Origin: Chlamydiota bacterium
Lineage (GTDB): Bacteria; Auribacterota; Tritonobacteria; UBA1439
DNA: 64,000 nt
Direction: 5' to 3'
Assembly (NCBI GenBank): GCA_012729785.1
Contig: JAAYCL010000038.1
Span: 46,172 to 110,171, forward strand
Shown: one piece after another, positions 24,257-27,516 of the stretch
Numbering within the stretch: position 1 is the stretch's first letter
Layout of the letters: each line of letters starts with the position of its first letter
Notes under the pieces: generated by a model
Seen by the model: the letters and a program-made list of their open reading frames with translations, nothing else
The model's database searches: none
Told to the model about the DNA's origin: nothing
Position numbers and translations under genes: made by a program

Positions 24257-25447
24257 CTATCGCCAGCCAAAGCCGCGAGCGGAGTAGGGGTCCGTACCGG
24301 CGGAGAGAAAACCGGAGGGACGGCGTGAAGACGGTGGCTGGAAGTTGGCCGGCACCACCGCGGGCGTCGCCCCCCCGTCGAGGGGGTCAGTCGAGAGATG
24401 GGATTCGATGAGATCGCTGTAGCCGTCCCGATCGGTGTCGGGGCGGCGCGCGTCCAGGTCGGTGCCGGAGGGGCCGGCGTCGGGATCATACGGCGCGTAG
24501 GAGGACGGGTCACCGTCGTAGCCGACCTCGTCGCGGTCCCCGACTCCGTCGCCGTCGGAATCCGCCAGATTCGGATCCGTGCCGAAACGCACCACCTCGT
24601 CGCCGTCGCCGAGGAGATCCCCGTCACTGTCAGGAGAGAGCGGATCGGTGCCCCACACATGCACCTCGGCGCCGTCGTTCAACTCGTCCCCATCCGTGTC
24701 GGAGGCGAGGGGATTCGTCCCGCGGACGGAGACCTCGTCCCCGTCGCTCAATCCGTCCCCGTCCGTGTCGAGGCTCGTCGGGTCCGTCCCGGCCCGGTAC
24801 TCGGCCAGGTCGTTCAGCCAGTCGCCATCCCCGTCGGCGGTTCCGTCGTGCGAGAGATCCCCGAAGAAACGGACCTCAAAGGCGTCACCCATCCCGTCGT
24901 CGTCGCCGTCATCGTTGATGACGAGCGTCTCGTCGCACCACGCGAAGCCGTACTCGCCCGCGGGGAGGTCCGCCTCCCATGCGGCGAAATAGGGCGGCCA
25001 CTCGAACGGAAGATACGAGGTGCCGCTCAGGCGGCATGAGATGACGAGCGACGAGCCCGCCGGGAGCGGATTCGCCCGCTCCTCGTACCTGCCCGGTTCC
25101 TCGAGTATCCAGTGGTGCGCGTTCGTCTCCGGGTACACGTCGTGCGTCGATACCTCGTACAGGTAGTCGGCGAGGGGGGCGCCGTCTATCGACACCCCGA
25201 TCGTTTCGACGTCATAGGCGGCGGGGATATGCTCGGTGAAGACCAGCCCGCGCAGGGAGGAGGCGCTGAGGTTGTCGATGCGAACGGTGAGCTCGAGGGG
25301 GATGCCGGGCATGATGAGCAGGGACTCGTACTCCCTCCCGACGGCGACGGCCACGCCCTCGGGATACACGTGCCCCGACGCCCGGGTGTGCGCCGGGACC
25401 AGGAGCGCCGCCGCGAGTACCGCTGAAGGCAACCTCATCAGATCCAT
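24257..25447 (-). CDS. Secreted thrombospondin type-3-like calcium-binding repeat protein 1
   Basis: This 396-aa exported protein has a signal peptide (LPSAVLAAALLVPAHTRA) and a beta-rich domain of about 160 residues. Six or so DxDxDG-type repeats follow (such as DTDGDGLSDGDEV, DSDGDLLGDGDEV, DTDRDGYSDLIESH), each expected to bind calcium. The last 20 residues match a pattern PSGF-x5-D-x2-S-x-RG-[FY]-GW that is also present in the second repeat protein upstream. The start codon overlaps the end of the DUF362 gene by 10 bases; a second ATG at 25438 abuts that stop. It is likely co-transcribed with that gene. Confidence 0.85.
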   Translation of the reverse strand: MDLMRLPSAVLAAALLVPAHTRASGHVYPEGVAVAVGREYESLLIMPGIPLELTVRIDNLSASSLRGLVFTEHIPAAYDVETIGVSIDGAPLADYLYEVSTHDVYPETNAHHWILEEPGRYEERANPLPAGSSLVISCRLSGTSYLPFEWPPYFAAWEADLPAGEYGFAWCDETLVINDDGDDDGMGDAFEVRFFGDLSHDGTADGDGDWLNDLAEYRAGTDPTSLDTDGDGLSDGDEVSVRGTNPLASDTDGDELNDGAEVHVWGTDPLSPDSDGDLLGDGDEVVRFGTDPNLADSDGDGVGDRDEVGYDGDPSSYAPYDPDAGPSGTDLDARRPDTDRDGYSDLIESHLSTDPLDGGATPAVVPANFQPPSSRRPSGFLSAGTDPYSARGFGWR

Positions 25448-26763
25448 GCCCCCTCGTAGTAGTACTCCACGAGCCGCTGAACGTCGATCGCCGAGGCGCC
25501 GCCCTCGCGGTGCTTCTTCGACATCATATCGAGCGCCCCCCGCACGCCGTGCGCCACCATGATGCCGCTCTCCTGGCTGTTCGCCGCGTAGCCGTAGCCC
25601 CGGATCGTCGTCTCGGCCTGCGCGAGGTAGTTCTTCAACCTCCCCGCGTTGTCGGGATGGTGTCGAGCGTCGCCGGTGGCAGGGTAGAGAACGTATTTCG
25701 AGGCGACGACGTCGAGCGCCACCGGGTCTACAGAGGCGAGCAGCGTCGCCGTGTGCGGGGCGAGGCTCTCGCTGTAGGTCTCGCAGCCCGGCCCGCCGCT
25801 CTTCACTACATGGATTGCGTCCAGCACGTGCAGATCGGCCCTGCGGATTGCCGACCAGATTGTCCCTGTCGTCTTCCCGAGGTCCAGGTAGTGGTACGGT
25901 GACGTGCCGAAGGGCGCGAGCTCCATCGAGAGGAGGCCGTAGGAGTGCTTGAGGGCCCCCGTCACCTGCGCCCCGCCGTGGTCTTTCAAGACCGGCACGT
26001 TGATGAGGCGGAGCCGGTCCTCGTAGGCCGCGCCGTTCCAGATGCCGTTCTTCAGGTTTATCTTGGTCCCGAAGGGGGTCGTGATCTTCGGGTAGGTGAC
26101 CGTGCCGAAGGCCACATAGCCGTCGCGCGTCTGATCTCCCTCTGTCACCCCCACGCTCCGGATGGTGTCGAGAAGGTAGGCGCTGATGCGGGTCACCCCG
26201 GAGAACATCGACACGACAGCGTTGAACGACTGCGAGTGGTCCACCGCGTTGGCGTGCACGCCGGGCCCGAGTTCCCCTGGATCCTGGTCGCAGTCGAAAC
26301 TACCCCGCCCCTGCCCGTTCTCGACGATGACGATCTCGCCCGAGAAAGTGTCGGGGTGCTCGATGATCCGCTGGATGAGCCCGCGGAGCACGTCGGTGTT
26401 CGTCGCGCCCCGGTAGCACCACTGGCCGTTCACCTTGATGACCACCACATCGTCCGCGTGGATGATGCCGGTCGGCCCCGTGAGGAGATCGCGCGTAGTG
26501 TCGCTCTGATAGAACGGCCTCTCGCACGAGGAGAAGAGAGAGAGTACGGTATCCAGTCCCGCGTGACGGTTGGCCCCGTGCACGAACGGGTTCTCCGGGA
26601 TGTTCCCCACCCTGAGGACAAGCGTCTTGTCAGTCGAAGCCGCCCACGCTCGGCGCAGCAGACCGCCCTTGAGGGAAAGAGCGAGCGCTGCGCCCCCCGC
26701 GGCTGACGTCTTGATGAACTGGCGCCGGTTCATCTTCCGGCCCGGGCATTGGTGTCGTATCAT
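25438..26763 (-). CDS. Tat-exported DUF362 protein
   Basis: This 441-aa protein has a twin-arginine signal (MNRRQFIKTSAAGGAALALSL), so it should be folded in the cytosol and exported. The rest is DUF362-like: VVVIKVNGQW, LINVPVLKDHGGAQVTGALKHSYG and LLASVDPVALDVVASKYVLYP. Unlike the relative at 17-18 kb it has no ferredoxin cysteine clusters. The start at 26763 has AGGGAGAG upstream. The ATG at 26733, immediately before the RR motif, is an alternative. It is the first gene of a pair with the repeat protein at 24.3-25.4 kb. Confidence 0.85.
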   Translation of the reverse strand: MIRHQCPGRKMNRRQFIKTSAAGGAALALSLKGGLLRRAWAASTDKTLVLRVGNIPENPFVHGANRHAGLDTVLSLFSSCERPFYQSDTTRDLLTGPTGIIHADDVVVIKVNGQWCYRGATNTDVLRGLIQRIIEHPDTFSGEIVIVENGQGRGSFDCDQDPGELGPGVHANAVDHSQSFNAVVSMFSGVTRISAYLLDTIRSVGVTEGDQTRDGYVAFGTVTYPKITTPFGTKINLKNGIWNGAAYEDRLRLINVPVLKDHGGAQVTGALKHSYGLLSMELAPFGTSPYHYLDLGKTTGTIWSAIRRADLHVLDAIHVVKSGGPGCETYSESLAPHTATLLASVDPVALDVVASKYVLYPATGDARHHPDNAGRLKNYLAQAETTIRGYGYAANSQESGIMVAHGVRGALDMMSKKHREGGASAIDVQRLVEYYYEGAWI

Positions 26764-26812
26764 AATCTCTCCCTGCAAGAGATACGGATGCGACCATACA
26801 CTTTTCATCTCT

Positions 26813-26841
26813 ACGCTAGCATCATCCAGCCTGAATATCAA
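26813..26841 (-). promoter_or_regulatory. Candidate promoter of the Tat-DUF362/repeat-protein pair
   Basis: On the minus strand TTGATA (26841-26836) and TAGCGT (26818-26813) are separated by 17 bases, in an unusually AT-rich stretch 50 bases upstream of the DUF362 start. The boxes are partial matches. Confidence 0.45.
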
Positions 26842-26905
26842 TAGTTACTTTTACTATTAACATGCAAAACTCTCACCCACATTCAGCGGTCCTACCGTAC
26901 CCAGT

Positions 26906-27448
26906 TCAGGCCCACCCGTAGCCTCGCGGGCTCGGGGAGTCCGCGGCGTCCACGCAAAATCCAGACGGATTCCTTGAATTCGCTGCACGCCGGAGGTTGA
27001 GGCGGACGCCACCGGAAGGAGCGCCTTCCCCCGTGTCCCATCCGCACTGTGCCTCTATGTAATCGCTGTAGCCGTCATTGTCGGAATCCGGACTCGTGGC
27101 CGAGGTGAGGAAGCTGAGGATCTCCTCCCCGTCGTCGAGGCTGTCGCCGTCGTGGTCGTCATTGCGCGGATCGGCAGGGCACTGCTCCAGCTCATCCCGG
27201 CTGGTCAGCCCGTCCCCGTCCCGGTCACCGTCCAAGTCGTCAGAGGCATCGCGCGGGTCGGTCCCATCATGGAGCTCCGCGAGGTCGCCCGTGCCCCCGC
27301 CATCGGTGTTGATCCCGCACCCCGCCATGAAGGGGACGGAAAACGTTCTGCCCTCGACGGCACCGATGTAGCGGGGGATTCTGCCGATTACTGCGTCGCG
27401 GAGATCGACGGTGGCGGCGGGGGCCACGCGGGGAGCGCACGCATGCAC
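26906..27448 (-). CDS. Thrombospondin type-3-like calcium-binding repeat protein 2 (5' end possibly frameshifted)
   Basis: This 180-aa frame contains three or four Asp-rich calcium-binding repeats (DLDGDRDGDGLTSRDEL, DDHDGDSLDDGEEI, DSDNDGYSDYIEA). It ends in the same PSGF-x5-D-x2-S-x-RGYGW tail as protein 1. It opens without a usable signal peptide. In a neighbouring frame starting at GTG 27486 there is a good signal-peptide-like sequence (MKAGCIISSAVALCMRALPAW) that would join the frame if one base were gained or lost within about 27413-27435. Either the gene is frameshifted or the sequence has an error there. Confidence 0.65.
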   Translation of the reverse strand: MHACAPRVAPAATVDLRDAVIGRIPRYIGAVEGRTFSVPFMAGCGINTDGGGTGDLAELHDGTDPRDASDDLDGDRDGDGLTSRDELEQCPADPRNDDHDGDSLDDGEEILSFLTSATSPDSDNDGYSDYIEAQCGWDTGEGAPSGGVRLNLRRAANSRNPSGFCVDAADSPSPRGYGWA

Positions 27449-27516
27449 AAGGCAACGGCGCTACTGATGATGCAGCCGGCTTTCACCGCTGCCCCCACGG
27501 TGCAGGTAGGGCGTAT

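Follow-up and report, generated by a model that had tools for sequence, protein, structure and literature searches.

A C-terminal tail shared by exported proteins of an Auribacterota class and its candidate acceptor, a truncated galactose-binding domain

Two tailed proteins of the window and their relatives

The window analysed here is a stretch of 64,000 nucleotides from a genome (G000) of the phylum Candidatus Auribacterota in the PVC group. Two genes on its minus strand encode proteins ending in the same short tail, and this tail, the proteins carrying it and a secreted protein that we propose as its partner are the subject of this report. The first gene (24257..25447, minus strand) encodes an exported protein of 396 residues with an N-terminal signal peptide and thrombospondin type-3 (TSP3) repeats, which match PF18884 at E 7.7e-15; its tail, NFQPPSSRRPSGFLSAGTDPYSARGFGWR (24260..24346, minus strand), is followed at once by the stop codon TAG. 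The second (26906..27448, minus strand) is an open reading frame (ORF) of 180 residues encoding a TSP3-like protein, and its tail, RLNLRRAANSRNPSGFCVDAADSPSPRGYGWA (26909..27004, minus strand), runs directly into the stop codon TGA. Both tails were delineated by a search of the genome with its own sequence and by tail alignment, and both proteins would be cargo in the system proposed below. The initial annotation described both as exported and TSP3-like, which holds for the first; the second, however, has no in-frame signal peptide and matches PF18884 only marginally (E 2e-4, under the curated cut-off). A signal-peptide-like segment, VKAGCIISSAVALCMRALPA, lies just upstream (27427..27486, minus strand) in a frame different from that of the body, and a frameshift or assembly error in the second tailed gene is therefore suspected, or else a pseudogene. 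Between the two tailed genes (25438-26841) lies a gene encoding a DUF362 protein with a Tat signal, as had been annotated; it lacks the tail and is tied to the tag system by adjacency alone.

The two proteins terminate in PSGFLSAGTDPYSARGFGWR and PSGFCVDAADSPSPRGYGWA, in which the pattern PSGF-x5-D-x2-S-x-RG-[FY]-GW can be read directly and with identical spacing. The last 60 residues of the first protein, used as a query against its own genome, recovered the second at E 1.6e-7 and no fewer than seven additional proteins with the same kind of ending, and the shared tail is therefore not due to chance. Profiles built from 10 tails (A1) and from 50 tails (A2) were run through a sample of 44 genomes of the phylum. 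The A2 profile gave 21 matches in G000, 12 in a genome of the same genus (G001), 22 in one of the same family (G003) and 37 in one of the same class, Candidatus Tritonobacter lacicola (G006), which NCBI assigns to Candidatus Auribacterota of the PVC group. These four tail-rich genomes are all draft assemblies, in which contig ends clip some tails, and start codons are estimates in all gene calls. Among the 40 other genomes profile searches found no tail in G002 and G005, which belong to the same family, only a whole-domain copy in G004 of that family, and in the remaining 37 no tail save for one internal copy in G026. A DNA pattern scan of about 85,000 species for NFQP-gap-YGW-x-stop, which considered AAC codons only and a single residue after the W and is thus a sample and not a census, gave 10 matches. 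Seven were true tails, six from Candidatus Tritonobacter lacicola and one from an uncultured bacterium; the other three, in Bacteroidota and Chloroflexi records, were rejected as tails of other phyla, not being in-frame copies, so that the scan yielded in-frame copies from this group alone.

The tail has the consensus [RK][IV]NFQP-x5-P-x-G[YFW]-x2-D-x-G-x2-[YF]-...-YGW, after which there are usually 0-4 residues and then the stop. Thus, although the pattern first annotated was correct as written, the conserved region begins earlier than PSGF, at [RK][IV]NFQP, and spans some 30-32 residues. In an alignment of 73 tails W is found in 100%, a G in 99%, the P of NFQP in 92%, F in 86% and D in 85%, while the second P is found in 84%, Q and another G in 79% each and N in 78%. 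The fetched DNA contained 96 distinct tail matches, 88 of them at the very end of the protein, in most cases with 0-4 residues past YGW, and 8 internal. Overall, no fewer than 80 exported proteins of the four genomes end in the tail. A signal-peptide-like N-terminus, as scored by a simple hydropathy rule, was present in 79 of 83 complete tailed ORFs. The bodies of 68 tailed proteins represent 39 Pfam families: TSP3 repeats (24 proteins), the metallo-beta-lactamase fold (8) and the lamin-tail domain (7) were counted among them, and others include GDSL lipases, phytase-like proteins, purple acid phosphatases, PQQ propellers, GH9, GH18, PLD and LamG domains and peptidases of the C25, S8 and C1 families. 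Threonine/proline linkers of the TPTPTPT type or TSP3 repeats often stand before the tail. This diversity of bodies speaks against a tail restricted to close homologs of the two window proteins. It also bears on the idea that the tail is no more than the usual ending of TSP3 proteins, preserved by the kinship of the window proteins and their homologues: such repeats do occur in 24 of the tailed proteins, but 44 have no TSP3 match and the tail also ends many other bodies and an anti-sigma factor, so that we consider this explanation refuted and leave it practically no weight.

Searches with NCBIfam and Pfam models gave no match for the tail alone, in agreement with the initial annotation, which recognized no known tag in it. 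No chain among the PDB sequences was matched by the tail profile, and no description of it was found in the papers searched. The tailed metallo-beta-lactamase-fold exoproteins have close relatives in the tail-free genomes G002 and G004 (52-61% identity over about 350 residues), but these have other C-termini. Hence, the tail is an exchangeable add-on, present where a particular gene triad, described below, is present.

The tail as a domain fragment and its truncated counterpart

In the internal copies the tail segment runs on into a domain of about 140 residues. A full-domain profile (A3), made from an alignment of six whole domains from internal copies, matched PDB 2o14, the N-terminal galactose-binding domain of Bacillus subtilis YxiM, at E 1.3e-4 with 13-144 of 146 positions aligned, including the tail part. 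The Pfam family closest to the whole domain is PF21254 (AGA-YXIM_GBD), which matches only under the curated cut-off. Because the internal copies continue into a whole domain that matches 2o14, we identify the tail by sequence comparison as the opening segment, some 32 residues long, of a galactose-binding (malectin-like) jelly roll that is broken off just behind YGW. The initial annotation had named a position inside a larger known domain as grounds for refutation, and this applies by half: the motif is the start of a YxiM-type fold, yet the rest of that fold is absent from the tailed proteins.

A search of seven genomes with the A3 profile uncovered copies matching only positions ~42-145, one each in G000, G001, G003 and G006. 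As the tails cover positions 1 to ~33 of the same profile, the whole fold is not found in one chain. The surroundings of these truncated copies are alike in all four genomes: a gene for an extracytoplasmic function (ECF) sigma factor is followed by an anti-sigma gene and then by a gene for a Sec-secreted protein, here termed the acceptor, which starts with the truncated domain as soon as its signal peptide ends, the break point being the same in 4/4. The anti-sigma factor itself ends in the tail, its C-termini in the four genomes being ...HVQFQPGEAGGMVSGGNARQEGVLRYGWK, ...RIAFQPAGAKISNGYMRDAGQKFGATFSERGEIRHGWH, ...QVNFQPEGDGAQVGYFRDSGEGFDVCMGQNGERRFGWR and ...KINFGPDSATLPEGYHMDVGKAYSASARQRDAKKYGWRG. 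The triad of G000 consists of the sigma factor (C37:90159-90755; Sigma70_r2/r4), which matches PF04542, PF08281 and TIGR02937 (5e-27), the tailed anti-sigma factor (C37:91049-91630; zf-HC2/membrane) and the acceptor with its truncated galactose-binding domain (C37:~91726-93168). The anti-sigma zinc finger PF13490 is found in G000, G001 and G006, and the first two genes have the features by which ECF sigma/anti-sigma pairs are recognized. The domains behind the truncated one differ, comprising four golvesin-C-like domains in G006, three whole galactose-binding domains in G001 and two repeated unannotated domains in G000 and G003, and the acceptor cores retain the conserved residues of the galactose-binding domain.

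A profile of the four truncated domains, run through the 44 genomes, gave exactly one strong match per tail-rich genome and elsewhere weak matches to whole domains only, and a profile of the whole anti-sigma factor showed the same distribution. The triad is thus present in 4/4 tail-rich genomes and 0/40 others of the phylum. Glycosyltransferase genes surround it in G000, G003 and G006. The suggestion that the tail is a sorting or recognition tag is borne out insofar as it ends many unrelated exported proteins; the co-occurring partner, though, is neither the membrane protease nor the transporter that had been anticipated, but a secreted protein with a complementary domain that is encoded with an ECF sigma/anti-sigma pair.

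Predicted structure of the tail and acceptor

The anti-sigma tail and the acceptor share one reading frame in G001, G003 and G006, which made it possible to present the anti-sigma tail, the linker and the acceptor domain to AlphaFold as one read-through chain with stops read as glycine, a test device and no natural protein. From an alignment of tails and acceptors only, the acceptor core was predicted with pLDDT mostly 76-92 and the tail with 50-60, and the match of this model to 2o14 was confined to the acceptor (Z 8.3, 94 residues). With an alignment containing tails and acceptors plus whole-domain homologues (A7), the read-through of G001 was modelled with pLDDT 85-88 for the tail, 91-97 for the core and 36-60 for the linker (pTM 0.71), with tail strands at residues 6-11, 23-25 and 42-45. 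This model aligned with 2o14 (VIA-align) from residue 14 to 156, with 136 residues over tail and acceptor, Z 16.3 and rmsd 2.2, and its next structural matches were malectin-like receptor domains. The model thus shows the tail and the acceptor as complementary parts of one predicted fold, with no large piece missing, but it is no proof of binding because the A7 alignment includes the whole domain.

The structural results also bear on another explanation, namely that the domain gave rise to a mini-motif which, as the tail, serves secretion or stability on its own, and that the truncated domain of the triad is a coincidental, non-binding decay product. Such a derivation would fit the occurrence of whole homologous domains in the same clade, as well as the tail being left undocked by AlphaFold when full-length rows were withheld. 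A chance product of decay is nevertheless hard to reconcile with a truncation point that is the same in four acceptors, right after the signal peptide and beside an anti-sigma gene whose end encodes the piece that is missing, with the strict division between tag-rich and other genomes, and with acceptor cores that keep the conserved domain residues. We regard this explanation as improbable.

A proposed tag/acceptor system and its alternatives

Based on these observations we propose, with a probability of roughly 0.65, that these genomes encode a non-covalent tag/acceptor system. Exoproteins would snap into a single acceptor, and the occupancy of that acceptor would be read by the anti-sigma tail. 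A YxiM/malectin-type galactose-binding domain of about 140 residues would be split such that its first ~32 residues (NFQP to YGW) end 12-40 exoproteins per genome, while the other ~110 residues form the N-terminal domain of the one Sec-secreted acceptor per genome. The cargo would exit the cytoplasm by Sec, and the tag would then insert into the acceptor domain and provide the strands that it lacks, so that the cargo is held non-covalently on an extracellular or periplasmic scaffold whose further domains probably attach to polysaccharide at the surface or outside the cell. The anti-sigma factor is predicted to reside in the inner membrane with its periplasmic C-terminus being the tag; free acceptor could bind there, cargo tags would compete, and the resulting gauge of acceptor versus cargo would by feedback set the activity of the sigma factor, whichever its sign, as bound acceptor may either release or block sigma. 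Stated in full, this amounts to a natural split-fold address system, in which a 32-residue piece tags 12-40 exoproteins and the anti-sigma factor, the rest of the fold on a single scaffold captures them, and the anti-sigma copy acts as an occupancy sensor tuning the ECF sigma factor; this complete version we hold to be evenly balanced between right and wrong.

Several observations weigh against this proposal. The anti-sigma factor of G003 has no recognizable zinc-finger residues and no PF13490 match, yet aligns over its length. The four genomes represent one class, so the co-occurrence of tail and triad may reflect one evolutionary event and not four. No shared ECF-type promoter was found upstream of the cargo genes: GGAAC-type sites were present in 3/51 upstream regions and there was no clear enriched dyad above shuffles. 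AlphaFold did not clearly dock the tail without full-length homologues, and the confident model leans on homology and on an artificial read-through of two genes. Finally, no tag-linked route across the outer membrane emerged, as both tag-rich and tag-free genomes have secretins; an outer-membrane exit thus exists, but the secretin was rejected as a tag-linked component.

The main rival is a processed sorting signal, whereby a transpeptidase or protease of the membrane or outer membrane would cut off the tail and attach the cargo to the surface, as with PEP-CTERM, LPXTG or type IX C-terminal domains, and the acceptor would be an extra component. PEP-CTERM signals require a membrane helix, a basic end and an exosortase; their genes are reported to share a sigma-54 site, and exosortase is found in exopolysaccharide loci (PMC1569441). 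The C-terminal position, the many-to-one pattern, the signal peptides and the restriction to one lineage are all typical of signals of this kind. Furthermore, the position of the triad among glycosyltransferase genes recalls that of exosortase, 8/24 tagged genes of G006 have sigma-54 promoters as is also reported for PEP-CTERM genes (PMC1569441), and a bona fide exosortase (PF09721, E 3e-46 or better) is encoded in G006 (C39:15586-16344; L147, L153), where three clustered tailed genes lie within a few kb of it, and in G001 (C158:3229-3984; L148, L154). However, the tag-rich genomes G000 and G003 lack PF09721, for which a control genome was matched, and exosortase was thus rejected as a universal partner. 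The motif is followed by no hydrophobic helix or basic end, no NCBIfam sorting model matches the tails scanned, and the tail belongs to a known domain whose remaining part another gene encodes, an arrangement that a cleavage signal would not need. On balance we consider a processed signal unlikely, if still the most credible of the alternatives.

In PEP-CTERM/exosortase, as also in GlyGly-CTERM/rhombosortase and LPXTG/sortase, many exported proteins of a genome that are otherwise unrelated end in a short conserved region, which is paired many-to-one with one other gene family near polysaccharide genes. The proposed tag/acceptor system shares these features, and in one genome also sigma-54 promoters upstream of many tagged genes. 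It differs in that the tag has neither a transmembrane helix nor a basic cluster, nearly all tails having 0-4 residues and no hydrophobic stretch after YGW, and in that the partner is a secreted complementary domain and not a membrane peptidase, with exosortase missing from two of the four tag-rich genomes. The type IX C-terminal domain likewise is a helix-free tag on exoproteins, C25 peptidases with TSP3 repeats among them, but is a whole beta-sandwich domain, unlike a tag of about 32 residues that is part of a galactose-binding fold. The type IX tail models TIGR04183 and TIGR04131 had no match on the tails, TIGR04183 giving one sub-threshold match inside one acceptor, and the type IX translocon SprA/Sov (PF14349) had no match in seven genomes, although the control genomes gave none either. 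Tag and acceptor together correspond to the YxiM (AGA-YXIM) domain (PF21254, PDB 2o14) and to malectin-like domains, but in the present case two proteins carry the parts of a single domain, and one half is attached to dozens of different proteins.

Further parallels are with systems of docking, strand complementation and cell-surface signalling. In the cohesin-dockerin system of cellulosomes many exoenzymes carry a small C-terminal module, the dockerin, which docks non-covalently on one scaffold and is a complete calcium-binding fold. The tailed exoenzymes would similarly dock by a small C-terminal module on one scaffold, the tag however being a fragment that completes the fold of its partner. 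In donor-strand complementation of chaperone-usher pili and in SpyTag/SpyCatcher a terminal peptide supplies the missing strands of a partner domain. The same would apply to the tail, albeit in a different fold, without a chaperone, an usher or a known isopeptide bond, and on dozens of unrelated enzymes. In cell-surface signalling of Pseudomonas, a periplasmic domain of a sigma regulator binds a transducer domain, as in PupR-PupB (PMC7186176). The proposed sensing is alike in its logic, as a sigma regulator of the inner membrane would use its periplasmic C-terminus to bind a partner domain that is in the envelope or secreted; it differs in that this partner is a secreted truncated domain and not a TonB-dependent transducer, and in that the binding peptide is common to dozens of cargo proteins. 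The tag system looks like a kind not described before. If the proposal is correct, it would represent a C-terminal targeting signal that works by completing the fold of its partner and needs neither a membrane helix nor a peptidase, in an uncultured class of the PVC group. It would predict which proteins sit together outside these cells, offer a natural tag/catcher pair directly testable in vitro, and suggest that the cell meters its exoprotein scaffold through an anti-sigma factor with the same tag.

We also made some observations on individual sets of tailed genes and their relatives. In G006 the sigma-54 promoter upstream of the 8/24 tailed genes, TGGCACG-N4-TTGCW, is near-perfect, and 0.35 such sites were expected from shuffles; examples are the genes L076 (at 2905), L079 (at 4093), L087, L073, L081, L089 and L075. 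Sigma-54 sites were absent upstream of the tailed genes of G000, G001 and G003. In G000 about 8 tailed genes lie within 20 kb (C40:1-23000; L017, L018), several of them with metallo-beta-lactamase-fold and lamin-tail domains and one encoding about 1,780 residues. Several exoproteins of the tail-free genomes G002 and G004, some of them with the metallo-beta-lactamase fold (L196, L197, L198 and L199; G004:C109; G002:C19, C156, C134), share another C-terminal region (...FSGVAPGSYVLQGGFVGKSGVIGGIADSPFTVQ and similar), which is possibly a replacement tag.

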